DNA of 32,717 nt from the NCBI GenBank assembly GCA_030691735.1, contig JAUYDS010000077.1:1-32717 (forward strand), in the 5' to 3' direction. The DNA comes from Candidatus Aminicenantota bacterium. Lineage in GTDB: Bacteria > Acidobacteriota > Aminicenantia > Aminicenantales > UBA4085. The notes beneath the pieces were generated by a model, which ran no database searches, was not told where the DNA came from, and saw only the letters and a program-made list of their open reading frames with translations. This document shows positions 14,940 through 25,717 of the stretch, piece by piece; position 1 is the stretch's first letter; every line of letters begins with the position of its first letter. The position numbers and the translations under genes were made by a program.

Positions 14940-14976
14940 GCTGGGATGGGAAGCCGTCATATTTCACATATTGATG

Positions 14977-15006
14977 TTGACAAAAAAATATTATTAATGA
15001 TAGATA
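14977..15006 (+). promoter_or_regulatory. Promoter of the redox gene cluster
   Basis: A consensus TTGACA (14977-14982) sits at the head of a markedly AT-rich island. TAGATA (15001-15006, 18-base spacer) or an overlapping hexamer would serve as -10. Transcription from ~15012 would leave a ~60-base leader before ATG 15075. Nothing else upstream could drive the cluster, and the preceding genes are relics. Confidence 0.5.
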
Positions 15007-15074
15007 TTGCTCACCCACCCGACTCCCAGGAGCCGGACGGAGAAAAGGGAGAGAAGAAGTTTGGGGCGATAACC

Positions 15075-15605
15075 ATGACCAAGGCGACCTGTCGACACAA
15101 ATGGATGATAATCAATCTCCGCGGCGGATATCTGGTGATCGAAGGCTGCTTCCACTGCCGGCAAAGGATCTCCCAGTTCTCAGAAGAGCCGGTCCCTCCG
15201 ATCGACGCCTATCGCGAAGCGGAGCATTTTTGGAGCCATTTGGGGGACTTTCAGGCCTCTAAGTTCGATCTCAAATGTGAAGAATGCTCGAAAGAGGTCC
15301 AGCTGCGCGATGTCATGGCAACGATGTTATGCATGAGATGCGACCCGGAGTGCGGCGTTTACAAAGTCGGCTCCCGGGCGAAGGGTGGCAAGTCATGGGT
15401 CTACGTGGCCCTCTGCGCGAACACATCTCACGCCTCCGGGACCTGCATCAGCGAGGCGGGGATCCGGGCCTTGAACGAGTATTTCAATCAAGATCTCCAC
15501 GATCCCGATAAAAAGATCATCGTCGTGCCGTGCGACCTGCGCAGATCCGTGGATACGTGTCAGGGAGTCGTCCTCGCCGATGTCGGCTTGACGGAACTTT
15601 ATTAA
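15075..15605 (+). CDS. Cys-rich double zinc-ribbon-like protein, first gene of the redox cluster
   Basis: 176 residues from ATG 15075 (longer in-frame starts lie upstream of the predicted transcription start). Two potential metal sites are visible: Cys6-x-His8 with Cys25-x2-Cys28, and Cys68-x2-Cys71 with Cys86-x2-Cys89 (Cys93 nearby). The rest is mixed alpha/beta with no signal peptide or membrane helix. I do not recognise the family. It leads a same-strand run of redox genes, 13 bases before a DRTGG-like gene, so it probably serves as a regulator, assembly factor or small subunit of that system. The Cys spacing suits structural zinc better than ferredoxin clusters. Confidence 0.65.
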   Translation: MTKATCRHKWMIINLRGGYLVIEGCFHCRQRISQFSEEPVPPIDAYREAEHFWSHLGDFQASKFDLKCEECSKEVQLRDVMATMLCMRCDPECGVYKVGSRAKGGKSWVYVALCANTSHASGTCISEAGIRALNEYFNQDLHDPDKKIIVVPCDLRRSVDTCQGVVLADVGLTELY

Positions 15606-15618
15606 AGGGAAGGTCAAC

Positions 15619-15945
15619 ATGAAAGTGTCTGAAATGGCGGCCAAGGCCGGCCTCAAGACTCTCAACGCGTGCGGAGACAAGGAGATCCGGGGGATCTATA
15701 TCTCCGACATGGTCAGCGACATCATTGGGATCGGAGAGGGGAATCTGCTGGTGACCCTGCAGACGCACAAGAACGTGATCGCGGCCGCCAACCTGGTCGA
15801 CGTGGCGGCCATCGTCTTCACCCGGGGGAAGACGCCCGCCGAGGACGTAGTCGCCCTGGCGACCAAAGCGGGGATCGGATTGCTGGGATTCGACGGGGAC
15901 ACATGGACGCTGGCCAAGAAGCTCTATGAACTCGGCATCCGATAG
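15619..15945 (+). CDS. DRTGG-like regulatory-domain protein (first copy)
   Basis: 108 residues that resemble stand-alone DRTGG-domain proteins found in bifurcating-hydrogenase operons (a fold also present in HPr kinase and phosphotransacetylase N-termini). Features are the N-terminal MKVSEMAAKAGLK, then IRGIYISDMVSDIIGIGEGNLLVTLQTHKN, whose core alternates strands and helices, and a VAAIVFTRGKTP segment. A paralogue lies at 21121 in the same cluster, sharing the MK(V/L)SE start and the (F/Y)xRGKxP motif. A ligand-binding or signalling role is inferred from family context; ligand unknown. The stop is 95 bases before the large Fe-S gene. Confidence 0.7.
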   Translation: MKVSEMAAKAGLKTLNACGDKEIRGIYISDMVSDIIGIGEGNLLVTLQTHKNVIAAANLVDVAAIVFTRGKTPAEDVVALATKAGIGLLGFDGDTWTLAKKLYELGIR

Positions 15946-16040: not shown

Positions 16041-18554
16041 ATGTCGCGAAAAGAACCTCGGACCCTGACGATGGAAATGGACCGCCGCAAGATCTACTTT
16101 CCGGAAGGGGTGACGGTCCATCGGGCCGCCGAACTGAACGGCGTCTATATCCCTTCCCTCTGTTCTCACAAGGATCTGTCCCCCTTCGGCGGCTGCCGGC
16201 TGTGCATGGTCGAGATCGAAGGGATGAGAGGCTATCCCCTATCCTGCAACACGACCGCCCAAGAGGGGATGAAGGTCCTGACCGAGACGCCGACGCTCCT
16301 GGAGCTCCGCAAGGAATTCTTGAAACTCATCCTCAGCGAGCACCCCTCGAGCTGCCTGATCTGCGACGAGAAATCCAACTGTCAGGAATATCAGGGCACG
16401 ATCCGGAAGAGCGGGATGACGACCGGCTGCCGTTTCTGTCCGAACGACGGTCAATGCGAGCTGCAAGACCTGGTCGATAAGCTCGGCGTGACGGATATCG
16501 ATTATCCCATTCTCTATCATGGCTATGAGCCTGAGCACGACGATCCCTTTTACGACAGGGATTACAACCTCTGCATTCTCTGCGGCCGGTGCGTGCGCAT
16601 GTGTCAGGAGGTCCGGGGGACCGGCGTCCTCGCCTTCACCTTTCGAGGGCCCCGGGCCAAGGTCGGTCCCGCCTTCGGCCGCAACCATCGAGAAGCGGGC
16701 TGCGAATTCTGCGGGGCGTGCGTGGATGTCTGCCCGACCGGCGCCCTGGCCGACAAGGCCTCCAAGTGGGACGGCCGTCCGGACGGCTATCATATCTCCA
16801 CTTGTCCCTTCTGCGCGATCGGGTGCCAGATCGAGCTGAGCCACAAAAACCGCCGGCTTTCCAAGGCCAAAGCCAACCTGGATCCGGAGGTCAATGACGG
16901 GCAGCTCTGCGTGAAGGGCCGCTTCTGCCTGCCGGAAGTGATCCACCATTTCGAACGGGCGAAACGGCCGATGCTCCAGAAAGGCGAATATTTCCGGGAA
17001 GTCGCCTGGCCGGAAGCCCTGGAGAAGGTCGGCGCCGAGCTCAAAGGCGTCCGCCCAGACGAGATCGTCATGCTGGTTTCACCGGACCTCACCAACGAGA
17101 GCCTCTTCGCCGCGCAGAAATTCGTCCGGGACTGCCTGGGGAGCCAGGCCATCGATTCAACGGCGCGCACGGAGCTGGCGGGAGGACTGGGTTTGTGGTC
17201 GAAGCTGTTCTCCCTGCCCATTTCGATCAAGGCCATCGCCAAATCGGACGTGATCCTGGCCGTCGGTCTCGACAGCCGGTTCGATTTCTCCGTAGTTGGG
17301 ACGAAGGTCCGGCAGGCACTCGACTCGGGCTCCAAATTGGTCGTGATCGATCCGCGGGCGGGCAACCTGGCCCGATATACGGACGATTGGCTGCGGCCCC
17401 GGCCGGGTATGGAGGGGGACCTTCTCAAGTTCTTTGCCGATCGCCTGGCCGGCAGGACGGCCGACGCCGCCTCAGTCGCGCGAGAAACATCGATCGATCC
17501 GGCGGACATGGACAGGGCTCTTGAGATCCTCTCTTCCGGCAAGGAACTGACGGTCATCCTCGGCCCTCAGGTCTTTCACTATGGGCGTAACGAGGCCCTC
17601 GTGGACGGCCTGATGACGCTGGCGGAGCGGAAAACCGCCAATTTCATCCCTCTCTATTTCGGGGCCAACTCGCGCGGAGCGCTGGAAATGGGGGTTTTTC
17701 CGGAGGTCGGTCCTGGCCTGACGGCCGGTCGGGGGACGGGGACCGCTTTGGCGGATATCATCAGCGGCTCCAAGAGGCCCAAAGTTTTGTATCTTGTCGG
17801 CGATATCCCTTTTCTGGAAAGACCGGACTGCGAATTCCTGATTGTCCAGGATATCTATATGCCGTCCTTCAAGGTCGACGCATTCCTGCCGGCCTCCGCC
17901 TTCGCCGAAGCCGGGGGAACGCTCATCAATATCGAAGGCCGCGTCCAGGAGGTCGTCCAGATCGAAGACCTGCCCGAAGGGGCGGTGACGGGTTTCATGC
18001 GGCCCGATTGGCTGATCTTCTCGGATCTCGACAAAGCCCTGGGCGGCACGACCTTGAACTATCACACGGCCAAGGACGTCCAAAAGGACATTCAAAAAGC
18101 GGTGCCGGATTTTGCGGCGGGGAACCGGAAACCGCGGCGGATGCATCCCGCAGACCATCTGGGGCTCTTTCCTTCGGCGCAGGAAAAGATCTCGATGGGG
18201 GATTTCGTGCTGGTAGCCGGACCGGGCGGATACCGCCATCGAGGGATCGACATCTCGTCCAAGGTCGGCGGATTGAACGAACTGGCCCTCGAAGAGGGCT
18301 TCCGGATGTATCCAGCCGATATCGTCTCGCTCGGCTTGAAGGATGGCGATCCGATCACCCTCTCGATCGAACATGGACGGGCGAGCGCCACGGGGCCGGT
18401 TAGATCCGACATGGAATGCCCGCGGGGCGCGATCTATTACACGCGGCCGGCCGTTTTCGGCGGGCTCGAACACCGGCGAGAGATGTCTTCGTTCTATCGC
18501 CTCATACCGAACCCGATCCAGGTCAGCGTTTCCAAGGCGGGAGGTTTAAAGTGA
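16041..18554 (+). CDS. NuoG/formate-dehydrogenase-like multi-cluster Fe-S protein without Mo ligand
   Basis: 837 residues. N-terminal [2Fe-2S] domain (Cys41, 52, 55, 69); His-ligated [4Fe-4S] (His101, Cys105, 108, 114); an extra CRFCPNDGQC motif (Cys130, 133, 139) that repeats the previous one; two ferredoxin [4Fe-4S] sites (Cys178-188, Cys221-231); a molybdopterin-oxidoreductase [4Fe-4S] (Cys255, 258, 262, 290) followed by KGR; then the large molybdopterin-oxidoreductase body and a C-terminal dinucleotide-binding domain. At the place where formate dehydrogenases have Sec/Cys, the sequence is IDSTARTELAGG, with Glu (~377) instead. This argues against formate oxidation and for an electron-relay role like NuoG. 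Flanked by a DRTGG-like gene and nfnA; a 231-base spacer follows. Shine-Dalgarno AGGGTGATCC precedes ATG 16041. Confidence 0.85.
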   Translation: MSRKEPRTLTMEMDRRKIYFPEGVTVHRAAELNGVYIPSLCSHKDLSPFGGCRLCMVEIEGMRGYPLSCNTTAQEGMKVLTETPTLLELRKEFLKLILSEHPSSCLICDEKSNCQEYQGTIRKSGMTTGCRFCPNDGQCELQDLVDKLGVTDIDYPILYHGYEPEHDDPFYDRDYNLCILCGRCVRMCQEVRGTGVLAFTFRGPRAKVGPAFGRNHREAGCEFCGACVDVCPTGALADKASKWDGRPDGYHISTCPFCAIGCQIELSHKNRRLSKAKANLDPEVNDGQLCVKGRFCLPEVIHHFERAKRPMLQKGEYFREVAWPEALEKVGAELKGVRPDEIVMLVSPDLTNESLFAAQKFVRDCLGSQAIDSTARTELAGGLGLWSKLFSLPISIKAIAKSDVILAVGLDSRFDFSVVGTKVRQALDSGSKLVVIDPRAGNLARYTDDWLRPRPGMEGDLLKFFADRLAGRTADAASVARETSIDPADMDRALEILSSGKELTVILGPQVFHYGRNEALVDGLMTLAERKTANFIPLYFGANSRGALEMGVFPEVGPGLTAGRGTGTALADIISGSKRPKVLYLVGDIPFLERPDCEFLIVQDIYMPSFKVDAFLPASAFAEAGGTLINIEGRVQEVVQIEDLPEGAVTGFMRPDWLIFSDLDKALGGTTLNYHTAKDVQKDIQKAVPDFAAGNRKPRRMHPADHLGLFPSAQEKISMGDFVLVAGPGGYRHRGIDISSKVGGLNELALEEGFRMYPADIVSLGLKDGDPITLSIEHGRASATGPVRSDMECPRGAIYYTRPAVFGGLEHRREMSSFYRLIPNPIQVSVSKAGGLK

Positions 18555-18785: not shown

Positions 18786-19619
18786 ATGTACTCGATCGTT
18801 GAACGGCGGATGATCGTCCCGAATATGCATGAATTCATCGTCCGGGCCCCGGTGGTCGCCGAATCTGTCAAACCCGGCAACTTCATCATGCTCCGGCCCG
18901 ACCCGACCGGCGAGCGGATCCCCTTGTCTGTCGCGGACTGGGACCGGGAGGCCGGCACGGTCACGTCCATCTTCATGCAGGTGGGGGGAACGACCGCGAA
19001 GCTGGCCCGACTGAAGCCCGGCGACACCATTCCGACCTATGTCGGACCGCTCGGCAAGGAGACCGTGATCGACAAGTTCGGCACGGTCCTATGCGTCGGC
19101 GGATGCTACGGGATCGGGTCCATCTACCCCATCGCCCGGGCCTTGAAAGAGGCCGGGAACAGGGTGGTCGTGCTCCTGGAAGCGCGAAGCTCGTTCCTTC
19201 TGTATTGGGAGGACAAATTGGCCCGCGTCGCGAATGATCTGTTCGTCATCACCCGCGACGGGACCAAGGGGCGGAAAGGGCACATCGACAAGATTCCCGA
19301 GTTGATGGGGGCCGCCGGAATCGTTCCCGATCGGGTGATCGTGAACGGATGCACGTTCCAGATGATGCGGGTCTCCGAGGTGACGAAACCCCTGGGCTGG
19401 AAGACCATCGTCAACATGAATCCCATCATGATCGACGGAACGGGCATGTGCGGAGTTTGCCGGCTGTCGGTCGGGGGAAAGACGAAGTTCGCCTGTGTCG
19501 ACGGCCCCGACTTCGACGGCCATGAGATCGATTGGGCCGAATTCCTGGCCCGGCGCAAGGGCTACAGCCCCGAAGAGGTCGATCCGCTCCGCCATAGCAG
19601 CTGCCGGTCCCGTTTTTAG
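18786..19619 (+). CDS. nfnA: NfnA-like FAD/[2Fe-2S] subunit
   Basis: 277 residues of the ferredoxin-NADP reductase/dihydroorotate dehydrogenase electron-transfer fold. The FAD-binding motif is RIPLSVADW (44-52), the NAD-binding region starts GTVLCVGGCYGIGSIYP (99-115), and the C-terminal [2Fe-2S] site is DGTGMCGVC…C (Asp218, Cys222, Cys225, Cys237), which matches the Asp+3Cys ligation known for NfnA. In NfnAB this subunit binds NAD(H) and carries electrons from the bifurcating FAD. Length fits NfnA/SudB. The strong Shine-Dalgarno GGGGGAGGA precedes ATG 18786, implying independent translation after the repeat spacer. NfnB follows 36 bases later. Confidence 0.88.
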   Translation: MYSIVERRMIVPNMHEFIVRAPVVAESVKPGNFIMLRPDPTGERIPLSVADWDREAGTVTSIFMQVGGTTAKLARLKPGDTIPTYVGPLGKETVIDKFGTVLCVGGCYGIGSIYPIARALKEAGNRVVVLLEARSSFLLYWEDKLARVANDLFVITRDGTKGRKGHIDKIPELMGAAGIVPDRVIVNGCTFQMMRVSEVTKPLGWKTIVNMNPIMIDGTGMCGVCRLSVGGKTKFACVDGPDFDGHEIDWAEFLARRKGYSPEEVDPLRHSSCRSRF

Positions 19620-19655
19620 AACGACCGCCCGGACGGATAGAGGAGGTTGCCGAGC

Positions 19656-21089
19656 GTGGCTGAAGAAAAACCTGAAAAGAAAAAGCTGGACCTGCAGCGG
19701 CGGCCCATGCCGAAGCAGAACCATTGGGAACGGGTTAAGAACTTCGACGAAGTGGCTCTGGGATATCCCGTCGCCGCGGCCGTCGAAGAAGCCTCGCGCT
19801 GTATCAAGTGCAAAAAGCCGCTCTGCAATCAAGGCTGTCCCGTGGGGATCGACATCCCCGGCTTCATCAAATGCATCGTTGAGGGTGACTTCGGCTCCGG
19901 GATCAGGAAGATCAAGAAGACCAACGCCCTTCCGGCCATTTGCGGCCGAGTCTGCCCTCAGGAAGAACAGTGTGAAAAAACGTGCATCCTCGGGAACAAG
20001 CAAGCGCCCGTGGCGATCGGCCGTCTGGAGCGGTTCCTGGCCGACTGGGAAGCCGCGGAAGGCAAGATCGAGGTCCCCGACATGGCTCCTAAAACGGGGA
20101 AGAAAGTCGCCGTGATCGGGGCCGGGCCGGCCGGCATCACCGTGGCCAACGACCTCATCATTCTCGGGCACGAGGTGACCATCTTCGAGGCGCTCCATGA
20201 ATGCGGCGGCGTCCTGATCTACGGGATCCCGGAGTTCAGGCTCCCCAAGGCGATCGTCAATCGCGAAGTGAACTATGTCAGGAGCCTCGGGGTAAAGATC
20301 TATACGGATTTCGTGGTGGGGAAGACGAGGACCGTCAACAGGCTCCTCGAGGAATTCGATGCCGTCTTCGTCGGCTCCGGGGCAGGGCTGCCTTGGTTCA
20401 TGGAGATCCCCGGCGAGAACCTCAACGGCGTCTATTCGGCCAACGAATACCTCACCCGGGTGAACCTGATGAAGGGATTCCGCTTCCCGGAGTACGACAC
20501 GCCGGTGAAACGGCCGTCCCGGGTGGCCGTCGTCGGCGGAGGGAACGTGGCCATGGACTCGGCCCGGACGGCCGTCCGGCTGGGCGCCGATGAGGTCCAT
20601 CTGGTCTACCGGCGAAGCAAGGCGGAGCTCCCGGCCCGCGTTGAGGAAGTGGAGAATGCCGAGGAGGAAGGGGTCATTTTTGATCTTCTCAATCTGCCCG
20701 TCCGGCTCATCGGCGACGAGAACGGCTGGATCAAAGAGATCGAATGCCTGCGGATGGAGCTGGGCGCCCCCGACGAATCAGGCCGGCGCAAGCCGGTTCC
20801 CATCCAAGGGTCCAACTATCGCGTCTCCTTCGACGCGATCGTCATGGCCATCGGCAACGGCCCCAACCCGTTGATCCAGATGACGACGCCCGGGTTGGAC
20901 ATCAATAAAAAGGGGGGGTTGGCGACCGATCCGGCAACGGGCCGGACGTCCAGGCCGAACATCTGGGCCGGCGGGGACATCGTCAGGGGGGCGGCTACGG
21001 TGATCAGCGCCATGGGGGATGGACGGATCGCCGCGGCCTCGATCCATCGCTATCTCATGAACAGGGAGGGCGAAGCCCCTGTGACATGA
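19656..21089 (+). CDS. nfnB: NfnB/GltD-like FAD- and NADPH-binding subunit
   Basis: 477 residues. Two N-terminal [4Fe-4S] motifs are present: CIKCKKPLCNQGC (Cys49, 52, 57, 61) and CGRVCPQEEQCEKTC (Cys96, 100, 106, 110). The FAD Rossmann motif is VAVIGAGPAG (151-160), and a second nucleotide-binding motif is VAVVGGGNVAMDSARTAVRL, followed by the YRRS basic segment for NADPH. This is the NfnB/GltD/SudA family; in NfnB the FAD bound here is the bifurcating flavin. The start is GTG 19656, nine bases after AGGAGG; a TTG at 19647 abuts the Shine-Dalgarno and is less likely. Paired with nfnA, so a full NfnAB module is present. Confidence 0.88.
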   Translation: MAEEKPEKKKLDLQRRPMPKQNHWERVKNFDEVALGYPVAAAVEEASRCIKCKKPLCNQGCPVGIDIPGFIKCIVEGDFGSGIRKIKKTNALPAICGRVCPQEEQCEKTCILGNKQAPVAIGRLERFLADWEAAEGKIEVPDMAPKTGKKVAVIGAGPAGITVANDLIILGHEVTIFEALHECGGVLIYGIPEFRLPKAIVNREVNYVRSLGVKIYTDFVVGKTRTVNRLLEEFDAVFVGSGAGLPWFMEIPGENLNGVYSANEYLTRVNLMKGFRFPEYDTPVKRPSRVAVVGGGNVAMDSARTAVRLGADEVHLVYRRSKAELPARVEEVENAEEEGVIFDLLNLPVRLIGDENGWIKEIECLRMELGAPDESGRRKPVPIQGSNYRVSFDAIVMAIGNGPNPLIQMTTPGLDINKKGGLATDPATGRTSRPNIWAGGDIVRGAATVISAMGDGRIAAASIHRYLMNREGEAPVT

Positions 21090-21120: not shown

Positions 21121-21465
21121 ATGAAATTATCCGAGATCAAAGAGCTTCTTCAATGTGAAGTTCTCGCCGGAGAGGACGATCTGTCCGTGGACATCCAGCA
21201 GGTCGTGGCCTCGGACGGCATGAGCGAAATCCTGGCCTTCGCCAAGTCCCGGGAATTGATGATCACGGGCCTCACCAATATCCAGTCCATCCGCACCGCG
21301 GATGTCGCCGGCGTCAGCGCCGTCATCTATTGCCGGGGCAAGCGCCCCGACAAGAAAGTGATCGATTTCGCCAAGCAAAAACAGATCCCGGTCCTCGTCA
21401 CGCCGATGGTCATGTTCGACATCTGCGGGATCCTCTTCAACCGGGGTCTTAAAGGCGTCTCATGA
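21121..21465 (+). CDS. DRTGG-like regulatory-domain protein (second copy)
   Basis: 114 residues, related to the product at 15619: it begins MKLSEIKELLQCEVL, has the ASDGMSEILAFAKSRELMITGLTN core in the place of the DRTGG fold, and YCRGKRPDKKVIDFAK. Shine-Dalgarno AGGAGC precedes the ATG. The stop overlaps the ATPase start (ATGA), so the two are translated together. In other anaerobes such proteins sit beside bifurcating hydrogenase genes; their ligand is not established. Here two copies flank the catalytic genes. Confidence 0.72.
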   Translation: MKLSEIKELLQCEVLAGEDDLSVDIQQVVASDGMSEILAFAKSRELMITGLTNIQSIRTADVAGVSAVIYCRGKRPDKKVIDFAKQKQIPVLVTPMVMFDICGILFNRGLKGVS

Positions 21466-21902
21466 CGGCCATGGAATTGCTGCGGGAATGCTATGAGATC
21501 CAAGGGAAGAATTTCGACAAGGCCGGCGAAGTCTCCGGCGAGATCAAGGTCGTCCTCCGGGATCTCGGCATCGACGCGGCCCATCTCCGGCGCCTCGTGA
21601 TCGTGGCCTTCGAGGCGGAGATGAACGTGGTCATGTACGCCCAGAGGGGGACGATGACATTGATCGTCACGGAGGAAGACATCAATCTGGAAACCACAGA
21701 CGAGGGTCCGGGCATCCCGGACATCGAACTGGCCTTGCAGGAAGGATATTCGACGGCCTCCGACGAGATGCGCGAGATGGGCTTCGGCTTCGGGATGGGC
21801 CTGCCGAACATGAAAAAGAACTCCGACGAATTCCGAATCGAATCGAACGTGGGGAAGGGAACCTCGGTCTTTTCGAAGATCCGGCTCCCGGCGCATGAGT
21901 GA
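21462..21902 (+). CDS. RsbW-like (GHKL) ATP-binding protein
   Basis: 146 residues with an HATPase_c-type domain like anti-sigma factor kinases. The N-box is EAEMNVVMYA, the G1 box DEGPGIPD, and the Gly-rich G2 region GFGFGMGLPNMKKNSD, followed by GKGTSV. There is no phosphoacceptor His, so it is not a normal sensor kinase. Related proteins accompany HydS/Hyd gene sets, where a regulatory phosphorylation or partner-switch role is assumed. Overlaps both neighbours (DRTGG-like upstream by ATGA, hydrogenase-like downstream by 8 bases), which ties it to both as one regulatory unit. Confidence 0.8.
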   Translation: MTAMELLRECYEIQGKNFDKAGEVSGEIKVVLRDLGIDAAHLRRLVIVAFEAEMNVVMYAQRGTMTLIVTEEDINLETTDEGPGIPDIELALQEGYSTASDEMREMGFGFGMGLPNMKKNSDEFRIESNVGKGTSVFSKIRLPAHE

Positions 21903-23199
21903 ACTTAAGCACGGGTTCAGGATCAACACGGAGATGTGTCAGGGACGGATGCACTGCATGCGGGCCTGTCCCACCCGCGCCATCCGCGTCAAGAACGGCA
22001 AGGCGCACCTGATCTCGGAGCTCTGCATCGATTGCGGGTTGTGCCTGACCGTCTGTCCCACGGGGGCCATCGCCGCGACCACGCTCACCTTCGCCGAGCT
22101 GGACCGGTTCAAGTTCAAGGTCGCCGTGGCCTCGCCCGCGCTGTTTGCCCAGTTCGGTATGAGCGACACGCCGGAAAGCGTGGGTCGGGCGCTCCTCGAG
22201 CTCGGCTTCGACGCCGTCTGGGAATACTCCGTGGACATCGAGCTGATCGACCGTGCCATCGCGGCCTGCGTCAAAAAATGGCCCGGACCATTTCCCCTGA
22301 TCTCCAATTCGTGTCCGGTCGTCGTCCGGCTGGTCCAGGTCGCCTATCCCTCGATGGTCGAACAGCTGATCCCCGTCGACGCCCCGCGGGAAATCGCCGC
22401 CCGGGAATTGAAGCGAAGATATTCCCAGGAGCTGGGGATCGCGGCCGAGGACATCGCCGCCATCTACATCACTCCCTGCCTGGCCAAGACCATTTCCATT
22501 CTCCAGCCCGCCGAGGAAGAGAAGAGCCATCTGGACGGCGCCGTCGGCATCTCCCAAATCTACAATGACATCCTCTATAAGCTCCGGACGGGCCTGACGC
22601 GTGAGAACGCCTCTAGAAAATTTTCTTTTTCGGGCGAAATGTTCCATTGGGGAGCCCCGGAAGGCGAGTTCCCCAGCCTTTCGCGAGAGCATTACCTCCC
22701 CCTCACGGGTCTGACGGACATCATCAAGGTTTTCGACGATATCGAGAAGGGCAAGCTCCGCAATATCGAGTTTCTGGAGTGCCATGCCTGTCAGGGAGGG
22801 TGCGTCGGTGGAAACCTGACCGTCGAGAATCTCTATGTCGCCCGGAGCAAGAATCTGCGTTTGGTCGCCAACATGCCGAGATCCGTTTCCAAATTCGAGG
22901 AGGAAGTCCAGCGGCGCTATGCCATCGAGGATTTTTCACTGCGGCGGTCCTTGAAGCCCCGCAAGATCGAGGGAGAGACCGGAGATCTTCGGGGACGGGT
23001 CCTGAGGAGAAAGAAGGCGGAGGAGCTATTGAAGGCCCTGCCCATGCTAAACTGCGGGCTGTGCGGCGCCCCGACGTGCAAGAGCCACGCGGAGGACGTC
23101 GCCGCATCGCGGGCAGAGATCGGTGATTGTATCTTTCTCTCCCCGGACCGGATCGTCCATCTCAGGGCCTTATATTTAGATCATCAAGACACGAAATAA
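21895..23199 (+). CDS. Sensory-type [FeFe]-hydrogenase homologue (HydS-like)
   Basis: 434 residues. An N-terminal 2[4Fe-4S] region (Cys15, 21, 25 with Cys54; Cys44, 47, 50) leads into the hydrogenase large-subunit domain, which keeps one Cys in L1 (SNSCPVVVR, Cys140), one in L2 (TPCLAK, Cys195) and two in L3 (ECHACQGGCVGG, Cys299 and Cys303). These are the four H-cluster-anchoring cysteines. The proton-transfer Cys of catalytic enzymes (TSCCP) is Ser here, and the L3 Met is His. A C-terminal FeS domain (NCGLCGAPTC, Cys387, 390, 395; Cys412) is typical of sensory group C/D enzymes. It probably senses H2 or redox state rather than producing H2. No PAS domain is present. Confidence 0.82.
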   Translation: MSELKHGFRINTEMCQGRMHCMRACPTRAIRVKNGKAHLISELCIDCGLCLTVCPTGAIAATTLTFAELDRFKFKVAVASPALFAQFGMSDTPESVGRALLELGFDAVWEYSVDIELIDRAIAACVKKWPGPFPLISNSCPVVVRLVQVAYPSMVEQLIPVDAPREIAARELKRRYSQELGIAAEDIAAIYITPCLAKTISILQPAEEEKSHLDGAVGISQIYNDILYKLRTGLTRENASRKFSFSGEMFHWGAPEGEFPSLSREHYLPLTGLTDIIKVFDDIEKGKLRNIEFLECHACQGGCVGGNLTVENLYVARSKNLRLVANMPRSVSKFEEEVQRRYAIEDFSLRRSLKPRKIEGETGDLRGRVLRRKKAEELLKALPMLNCGLCGAPTCKSHAEDVAASRAEIGDCIFLSPDRIVHLRALYLDHQDTK

Positions 23200-23248
23200 A
23201 TCCATGATCGGAACGACTTCGAACACGAACGATCGCAAGGAGGGCGGG

Positions 23249-23749
23249 ATGACGGCGAAAGCTGAGACAGACGTTCTGGATAAAACCCGCGAGCGGCGGA
23301 AAGAGGTAATCCCCCTTCTCCAAAAGGCCCAGGAAGTCCAGGGGTATCTTACCCCCGATGCCATCCAAACCATCTCCCAGACGCTGAAGGTCTCGGAAAA
23401 CGAGATCTACGGAGTGGCCACGTTTTACAGCCAGTTCCGGTTCCGGCCGCCTGGGAAATACAACATCAAGGTCTGCCTGGGGACTGCCTGCCACGTGGGC
23501 GGCGGCCAGAACTTCATGGAGGTGATGAAAACGGACAAGAACCTCGACCATGGCGAGACCTCGCCGGATGGGAAGTTCAGCCTGGAGCGGGTCGCCTGCC
23601 TAGGATGCTGCGCCCTGGCCCCCGTCGTCGTCGTCAACGAGGAGGTCCACGGCCGGATGAACCGGGTCACCTTCACGAAACTCCTGGAATCGATCGATCC
23701 TCCTCCCCCCGCGGAGGTGGTGCCGGACACGCCGGCGTCCAAAGGATAA
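23249..23749 (+). CDS. nuoE: NuoE/HydC-like [2Fe-2S] subunit
   Basis: 166 residues of the thioredoxin-like 24-kDa subunit family. The N-terminal helical bundle contains LLQKAQEVQGYLTPDAIQ and GVATFYSQFR; the [2Fe-2S] ligands are Cys76 and Cys81 (VCLGTACHV) with Cys117 and Cys121 (ACLGCCALAP). ATG 23249 is used because AAGGAGGG stands just upstream; an earlier in-frame ATG at 23204 has none. This subunit passes electrons to or from the FMN subunit encoded next, as in NuoEF and HydCB. The 99-base gap to that gene shows no feature. Confidence 0.92.
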   Translation: MTAKAETDVLDKTRERRKEVIPLLQKAQEVQGYLTPDAIQTISQTLKVSENEIYGVATFYSQFRFRPPGKYNIKVCLGTACHVGGGQNFMEVMKTDKNLDHGETSPDGKFSLERVACLGCCALAPVVVVNEEVHGRMNRVTFTKLLESIDPPPPAEVVPDTPASKG

Positions 23750-23848
23750 AGAAATCATGAACCGCCGCCCGACGATGCGCGTTTCGAGACGATCCGAGGC
23801 CGCGCGCGCTAGACGGCATAATCCCGTTCATGCAAAGTGGGAGCCCTC

Positions 23849-25717
23849 ATGAGCCTAAATGAACCAAGAATCCAAACCCCGCCCTCGGGAGCCGCGGCGG
23901 GAACCGTCCCGCCGGCCAAGATCCGCGTCCTTGTCTGCGAAGGCACCGGGTGCGTGTCCTCGAAATCGCCGGAGATCCGAGCCGCCCTAGAGAAGGCCGC
24001 TCAAGAGTTCGGCCTGGGGGACCGCGTCGAAGTGGGGTTCACGGGCTGTCACGGCTTTTGCCAGAAAGGTCCGATCGTGGTCGTCGAGCCCGAAGGGATT
24101 TTCTACTGCCGGGTGAGCCCGAAGGATGCCAAAGACATCGCCGAGTCCCACCTGGTCGGCGGGGAACCGGTCAAACGACTGTTTTACCGCCACCCCGTCA
24201 CCAAAGAGGTCGTCCCCTATTACCGGGACATCATGTTCTATAAAAAACAACAGCGGGTCATCCTCCGGAATTGCGGTAAGATCAATCCGGAAAAGATCTC
24301 GGATTACGAAGCCCATGAGGGCTATCAAGCCCTCCGGAAGGCCGTCACGACCATGACCCCGGCCCAGGTTGTCGAAGAGGTCCGCCGTTCCGGATTGCGC
24401 GGGCGCGGCGGGGCCGGTTTTGCCGCGGCGATCAAATGGGACGTCTGCCGGAAGCAGCCTGGGAAGGTCAAATATGTCATCTGCAACGCCGACGAGGGCG
24501 ATCCCGGGGCTTTCATGGACCGCAGCATCCTCGAGGCCGATCCCCACATCGTCCTTGAGGGGCTCAGCCTTCTCGGATTCGCCATCGGAGCCCGGAAGGG
24601 CTTCATCTACTGCCGCGCGGAATATCCCCTGGCCGTCAAAAGGGTTCGCATCGCCCTCCAGCAGGCGTGCGAAAAAGGATATCTGGGAGAGAGGATCCTC
24701 GGCTCAGATTTCGATTTCGACATCGATATTTTCGAAGGAGCGGGGGCCTTCGTCTGCGGCGAGGAAACGGCCTTGATCGGATCCATCGAAGGCTCCCGGG
24801 GGATGCCGCGCAGCCGGCCGCCCTTCCCCGCTGAAAAAGGCCTGTGGGGAAAACCGACCGTCATCAACAACGTCAAGACGCTGGCGTCGGTCCCGGTCAT
24901 CATCAATCAAGGCGCGGACTGGTTCGCCTCGATCGGGACGGAGAACAGCAAAGGAACCGCCGTCTTCGCTTTGACCGGGAAGATCGCCAATTCCGGGCTC
25001 GTCGAAGTGCCGATGGGGACCCCTCTGTCCACGATCATCTACGAGATCGGCGGGGGCATCCCGAACAAAAAATCTTTTAAAGCCGTCCAGACCGGCGGGC
25101 CATCAGGAGGATGTTTGCCGGGGAGCCTGCTGGAGCTGCCGATCGATTTCGATTCCTTGAAGGAGGCGGGGTCCATGATGGGATCCGGCGGTCTCGTGGT
25201 GATGGATGACGACACGTGCATCGTGGACGTCGCTCATTTCTTTCTGTCCTTCACCCAGAGCGAATCATGCGGCAAATGCGTCCCCTGCCGGGTCGGCACC
25301 CGCCACATGGTGGCTCTCCTGGACAAGATCAGGACCGGAAAAGGGACCGAGGCGGATCTGGCGAAGCTGGAGAAGCTGGCCCATATGGTCAAACAAGGCT
25401 CCCTCTGCGGCCTGGGACAGACCGCTCCCAATCCGGTGCTCACGGCCCTCCGATATTTCCGCTCCGAGTTCATCGCCCACGTCGTCGACCGGCGCTGCCC
25501 CGCAGCGGCCTGCCGCGACCTTGTCACGTTCCGCATCATCCCTGAACGGTGCACGGGATGTCAGATGTGCGTCAAGGTCTGTCCGACGAAGGCCATCACC
25601 GGACCGCGCGCCCAGGCCCACAACCTCGACCAGGCGAAGTGCATCAAATGCCGCTCGTGCTACGAGATCTGCCGGTTCGATGCGGTCGCCGGCGACGCTA
25701 TCATCATGGTGTCCTGA
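23849..25717 (+). CDS. nuoF: NuoF/HydB-like FMN- and NAD-binding subunit (BfuB type)
   Basis: 622 residues from ATG 23849 (GGGAG upstream; a GTG at 23837 is less likely). An N-terminal thioredoxin-like [2Fe-2S] domain (Cys30, Cys35, Cys67, Cys71) precedes the NuoF core: FMN motif GRGGAGF (185-191), NADEGDPGAF (213-222), and the [4Fe-4S] site CGKCVPC with Cys520. Two extra ferredoxin [4Fe-4S] clusters finish the chain (Cys568, 571, 574, 578; Cys598, 601, 604, 608). Ordinary NuoF of complex I lacks both extensions; they define the HydB/BfuB group used in flavin-based electron bifurcation. It would bind NAD(H) and hand electrons to ferredoxin. Last gene of the cluster. Confidence 0.93.
   Translation: MSLNEPRIQTPPSGAAAGTVPPAKIRVLVCEGTGCVSSKSPEIRAALEKAAQEFGLGDRVEVGFTGCHGFCQKGPIVVVEPEGIFYCRVSPKDAKDIAESHLVGGEPVKRLFYRHPVTKEVVPYYRDIMFYKKQQRVILRNCGKINPEKISDYEAHEGYQALRKAVTTMTPAQVVEEVRRSGLRGRGGAGFAAAIKWDVCRKQPGKVKYVICNADEGDPGAFMDRSILEADPHIVLEGLSLLGFAIGARKGFIYCRAEYPLAVKRVRIALQQACEKGYLGERILGSDFDFDIDIFEGAGAFVCGEETALIGSIEGSRGMPRSRPPFPAEKGLWGKPTVINNVKTLASVPVIINQGADWFASIGTENSKGTAVFALTGKIANSGLVEVPMGTPLSTIIYEIGGGIPNKKSFKAVQTGGPSGGCLPGSLLELPIDFDSLKEAGSMMGSGGLVVMDDDTCIVDVAHFFLSFTQSESCGKCVPCRVGTRHMVALLDKIRTGKGTEADLAKLEKLAHMVKQGSLCGLGQTAPNPVLTALRYFRSEFIAHVVDRRCPAAACRDLVTFRIIPERCTGCQMCVKVCPTKAITGPRAQAHNLDQAKCIKCRSCYEICRFDAVAGDAIIMVS

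Follow-up and report, generated by a model that had tools for sequence, protein, structure and literature searches.

A HydS-like protein of Candidatus Aminicenantota is probably an iron-sulfur switch beside an NADH/ferredoxin enzyme and not a hydrogen enzyme

The window analysed here is the whole 32,717-nucleotide stretch of contig JAUYDS010000077.1 (assembly GCA_030691735.1) from a Candidatus Aminicenantota bacterium, in which a HydS-like gene lies among forward-strand genes for NuoEFG-like, Nfn-like, DRTGG-domain and HATPase_c proteins (Table 1). The HATPase_c gene overlaps the HydS-like gene by 8 nt and that of DRTGG-domain protein 2 by 4 nt, and the overlapping RsbW-like and DRTGG-like neighbours through which an earlier note had routed a signal are real. 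The NuoF-like subunit comprises an N-terminal thioredoxin-like [2Fe-2S] domain, an FMN/NADH domain and a C-terminal pair of [4Fe-4S] motifs; together with the NuoE-like subunit it has, by domain content, the BfuB plus BfuC pairing of the Bfu core. Profile searches found no H-domain in the NuoG/FDH-like subunit (837 aa), which also gave no match to the C-terminal molybdopterin-binding domain. The Cys-rich protein (219 aa) has homologues in 13 of 80 HydS loci, and is kept beside DRTGG-domain protein 1, HydS, NuoEFG and NfnAB in loci from Zixibacteria, Calditrichota, KSB1 and Latescibacterota.

Table 1. Features of the HydS-like locus, in window positions
Feature	Coordinates	Strand	Evidence
Cys-rich protein, family unassigned	14946..15605	+	no Pfam, NCBIfam or PHROG match
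DRTGG-domain protein 1	15619..15945	+	Pfam
NuoG/FDH-like subunit (BfuA-type N-terminus + molybdopterin-oxidoreductase domain)	16041..18554	+	profile matches
NfnA-like FAD/NAD + Fe-S subunit	18786..19619	+	NF004862 over cut-off
NfnB/GltA-like NADPH-binding subunit	19647..21089	+	TIGR01316 over cut-off
DRTGG-domain protein 2	21121..21465	+	PF07085; homologue in 61/80 loci
GHKL/HATPase_c protein (SpoIIAB/RsbW-like)	21462..21902	+	PF02518 E 3e-10; TIGR01925 below cut-off
HydS-like (group D-type) protein P0001	21895..23199	+	ORF, Pfam, tree, AlphaFold model
NuoE-like (BfuC-type) [2Fe-2S] subunit	23204..23749	+	profile matches
NuoF-like (BfuB-type) subunit	23837..25717	+	Pfam

The HydS-like gene is an intact, ATG-initiated frame of 434 codons. 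Its product has two N-terminal Fer4 motifs, an iron-hydrogenase large C-terminal domain (PF02906, residues 76–306, E 1.3e-24) and an FeS domain (PF04060, residues 382–414, E 1.2e-10) that brings a C-terminal Cx2Cx4Cx16C [4Fe-4S] motif, read as CGLCGAPTC-x16-C; as the earlier note had stated, no PAS or kinase domain was found fused to it by Pfam. Compared in the CpI numbering of PMC8163306, its L1 motif is SNSCP, with S139 in place of C299; its L2 motif is TPCLAK, with T193 in place of M353 and a lysine at K198; and its L3 motif is FLECHACQGGC, with H297 in place of M497. All four H-cluster cysteines (C140 in L1, C195 in L2, C299 and C303 in L3) are present, which bears out the retained cysteines, the serine at the proton-transfer position and the L3 Met to His change previously described for this protein. 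The L2 Met to Thr change and the C-terminal four-Cys motif had been overlooked, as had R18 (21946–21948), an Arg where the first ferredoxin motif normally has its second Cys. With R18 the first N-terminal cluster can have at most three Cys ligands, and since one cluster cysteine is replaced we are unsure of full cluster occupancy.

Orthologues in other genomes of the order are 66–78% identical to the HydS-like protein, and the gene is under purifying selection, with dN/dS of 0.12 against a same-genus genome (N-terminal 209 codons) and 0.10–0.33 against other genomes. An AlphaFold model, for which 45 window and locus sequences were used, has a pLDDT of 88.6, is weakest in the loop around residues 231–270, and finds only [FeFe]-hydrogenases as its best PDB matches. 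Conservation, selection and a hydrogenase-like model together mean that the open reading frame is not a chance one.

A careful maximum-likelihood tree was built from 70 rows, TamHydS itself not among them. In it the HydS-like protein groups with Bacillota HydS (support 99/99), and the rows of group C (100/99) and of group A (100/100) stand apart. Within this grouping it falls in a mostly non-Bacillota sister clade (94/85) whose members come from Aminicenantota, Acidobacteriota, Zixibacteria, Calditrichota, Ignavibacteriota, WOR-3, Planctomycetota, Myxococcota and others. Two earlier trees had one and three group A rows respectively, and in the second, a quick one, the non-Bacillota split was less well supported; the careful tree is therefore preferred. 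The Bacillota rows are called group D because they carry the TamHydS proton-path residues (equivalents of E252 in 28/29 and of D265 in 29/29). By sequence and tree position we therefore classify the window protein as a relative of group D (M2e, TamHydS-type). It has the non-Cys residue at C299 and the Ser/Thr at M353 expected of that group (S139, T193), and its domain plan apart from the one Cys missing from the first ferredoxin motif; of the proton path E252-E289-S249-D265 it keeps E258 and E295, with P255 and T271 replacing S249 and D265. The group A motifs TSC[CS]P and [AS]C.GGC..GGG are not found in it. Thus the sensory kinship with groups C and D proposed earlier holds for group D but not for group C, and the catalytic group A placement that would have spoken against it did not emerge.

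The earlier note had also argued that an H-cluster could be bound, and had named the absence of hydE, hydF and hydG from relatives as the finding that would overturn this. No HydG was found by profile search in the window's own genome (assembly 92.5% complete), and across the order, surveyed in 94 genomes (the window's own and 93 relatives), none of HydE, HydF or HydG passed the cut-off. Of these genomes 45 reach 90% completeness or more with contamination of 5% or less, two are single contigs, and most carry at least one HydS-like gene. The Thermotoga maritima control was positive in this survey, and HydF was called at E<=1e-40, a looser search matching every GTPase. Radical-SAM matches to HydG and HydE below the cut-off in a few genomes of the order, though not in the window's, were rejected as partial. 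Beyond the order, 50 further HydS-bearing genomes from many phyla, searched with the HydG profile alone, comprised 6 with HydG and 44 without. The 6 positive genomes coincide exactly with the ones in which a high-scoring group A hydrogenase occurs (n=50; Fisher p 6e-8), and the 44 that have neither include seven chromosome records; among Bacillota genomes with a HydS homologue, HydG is present in 24/40. Most of the surveyed genomes are MAGs or drafts, and these presence calls rest on HMM cut-offs. As HydEFG, by which the [2Fe] subcluster is known to be made, is missing, a canonical H-cluster in the HydS-like protein is very unlikely; its absence is well supported, and the outcome named in the earlier note is the one observed.

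The only PF02906 matches in the window's own genome are the HydS-like protein and a HydS-kinase interrupted by TAG, and the [NiFe] large subunit PF00374 has no match in the assembly at E<=1e-15. This second hydrogenase-like protein (locus L001, 46–2130) is fused to a histidine kinase, falls in group C in the tree, has C-x2-C spacing in L3 and carries its in-frame TAG at 802–804; the counterpart in a same-genus genome (G008) is an open frame of 699 aa.

Residues of the [2Fe] pocket were compared between Bacillota HydS (n=29) and non-Bacillota HydS (n=79), counts which reflect shared ancestry and are not independent events. The D265 equivalent is found in 29/29 Bacillota sequences versus 1/79 elsewhere, the E252 equivalent in 28/29 versus 13/79, and the inner Gly of L3 (G301) in 26/29 versus 8/79. 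The C299 position is often Phe or another, larger side chain in non-Bacillota loci, the first L3 Cys has become His in seven loci of Zixibacteria/Calditrichota type (L087, L088, L089, L094, L096, L099, L101), and the first ferredoxin motif, whose second Cys is kept in 29/29 Bacillota, has Arg or His there in most others. Most of the non-Bacillota clade has thus lost residues that surround the [2Fe] site. Erosion is milder in the small clade to which the window protein belongs (E258 in 8/10, the L3 GGC in 8/10), and the HydS-like protein and its nearest orthologues retain K198, E295 (E289 equivalent), E258 (E252 equivalent) and the GGC of L3, with E258 lying in a low-confidence loop of the model (pLDDT 57–72).

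Across the 80 related HydS loci the HATPase is found in 77, DRTGG-like genes in most, and NuoE and NuoF in more than 50, many contigs ending early. The third partner of this DRTGG-HATPase-HydS/NuoE-NuoF set varies, being a group A HydA, HdrA-MvhD-[NiFe] or, as in the window, NuoG-Nfn. The partner is group A HydA at 12 Bacillota loci, every one of which comes from a HydG-positive genome, and in the contig scan group A HydA was nearby in only one of the 80 loci, from a Clostridia genome (L117). The constant company of the module is therefore an NADH/ferredoxin core, named BfuBC in PMC9304861, and not a hydrogen enzyme. A paralogous operon of the order has HdrA, MvhD and a [NiFe] hydrogenase as the partner and a sigma-54 response regulator after them; its gene order (L041 6179–14974, L207 1901–6357) is DRTGG-HATPase-HydS-DRTGG-PHP-HATPase-NuoE and then 2Fe2S-NuoF-HdrA-MvhD-MvhG-[NiFe] large subunit-sigma-54 response regulator. 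In four other loci (L197, L198, L199, L202) the NuoG/FDH-like partner is in two or three pieces, perhaps reflecting an in-frame TGA for selenocysteine, and HydG over the cut-off is missing from 3/4 of their genomes.

Among the closest characterised proteins is TamHydS of Thermoanaerobacter mathranii, of group D (M2e), which has the same domain plan, the Cx2Cx4Cx16C tail and no PAS domain (PMC8163306, PMC10407848, PMC13104023). Shared with it are a hydroxyl residue at M353, the replacement of C299, equivalents of E252 and E289, and a HATPase neighbour; unlike TamHydS, the window protein has no D265 or S249 equivalents and has R18 for a ferredoxin Cys, its genome has no HydEFG, and no group A hydrogenase adjoins its gene. 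The putative sensor TmHydS of Thermotoga maritima, of group C (M2f), follows the same ferredoxin/H-domain/C-terminal [4Fe-4S] plan (PMC10055695), but group C rows differ from the window protein in forming a separate clade, in their fused sensor or kinase domains and in their C-x2-C spacing in L3. The group C1 proteins of Hydrogenedentota are likewise hydrogenase homologues doubted as H2 sensors and associated with HATPase_c (PMC11406978), although their Cys motifs are mostly unrecognisable, whereas in the present case the four cysteines are kept and the maturases are missing. The window resembles the NAD(H)/ferredoxin bifurcating Bfu family of PMC9304861 in its BfuC- and BfuB-type NuoE and NuoF and in its Nfn-type partner, but differs in that this partner is NuoG-like with separate NfnA and NfnB; in the searched text of that 2022 paper there is no mention of a sensory HydS/DRTGG/histidine kinase module.

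We propose that the HydS-like protein is probably a conserved iron-sulfur switch beside an NADH/ferredoxin enzyme and not a hydrogen enzyme. For the fuller explanation, that this group D-type homologue senses redox state for a bifurcating NADH/ferredoxin complex, or regulates it, without using an H-cluster, we see an even chance. It would be a multi-[4Fe-4S] redox switch without an H-cluster, sensing how far the NADH/ferredoxin pool, or else the NuoEFG-Nfn (Bfu-type) complex encoded with it, is reduced; a conformational signal would pass to the overlapping HATPase_c and DRTGG proteins, and these may adjust the complex or its expression. Apo-TamHydS produced without HydEFG contains four [4Fe-4S] clusters (PMC8163306). 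We infer cluster occupancy, redox sensing and the path and target of the signal, and draw the regulator role from the gene neighbours alone.

The main rival, which we think rather unlikely, is that the protein is an electron-transfer subunit or an assembly or stability factor of the Bfu-type complex, using the apo-hydrogenase fold in a Nar1-like way and with the HATPase driving assembly instead of signalling. Such a role would suit the tight co-location with NuoE and NuoF whatever the third partner, the four potential [4Fe-4S] sites and the lack of a DNA-binding domain in the window's module. However, SpoIIAB/RsbW-like HATPases and DRTGG proteins are typical of regulation, the paralogous operon ends in a sigma-54 response regulator, and solved HydABC complexes are not known to contain subunits other than A, B and C.

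That the protein truly senses H2 with a complete H-cluster, matured by divergent or unknown enzymes or by maturases that went unnoticed in draft genomes, seems improbable: three maturase families are absent from 94/94 genomes, HydG from 44/50 others, and the D265 and S249 equivalents are lost, even though this orthologue retains the four cysteines together with K198, E258 and E295, its pocket is among the best kept, and group D enzymes supplied with the H-cluster are active (PMC8163306). It is doubtful indeed that the [2Fe] cavity of the H-domain, once vacated, binds another small molecule or metal, as the Phe, Thr or His that replace cavity residues in the clade, including His at 297 and 299 in some members, might suggest, since no consistent new ligand set runs across the clade. 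It is hardly credible that the gene is the decaying remnant of a hydrogenase system since lost; no catalytic hydrogenase was found in the genome assembly and the HydS-kinase paralogue has an in-frame stop, but decay of the HydS-like gene itself is rejected by its dN/dS of 0.10–0.33, and the operon is conserved and present across many phyla.

The redox-switch reading bears on how HydS proteins are understood, as their shared H-cluster fold is the reason why they have been taken to be H2 sensors. The TamHydS paper argued from well-conserved HydEFG that all groups depend on the H-cluster (PMC8163306), and another remarks briefly that [FeFe] hydrogenase genes occur in a few species that lack the maturases (PMC3226654); we found no earlier report of HydS without HydEFG in the open-access literature, which is weak evidence of novelty. 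A large clade that has the cysteines and the signalling module without the maturases breaks this inference from HydEFG conservation. It is possible, and we suggest it tentatively, that across many phyla the HydS-like clade serves as an H-cluster-free general redox-sensing or regulatory partner to bifurcating complexes of the NADH/ferredoxin kind, and that H2 sensing, as done by true HydS proteins, is one version of an older or parallel redox role. Annotation pipelines would count genomes of this kind as hydrogen-metabolising, which may be wrong, and the clade without HydEFG provides a direct comparison for what the HydS module senses.
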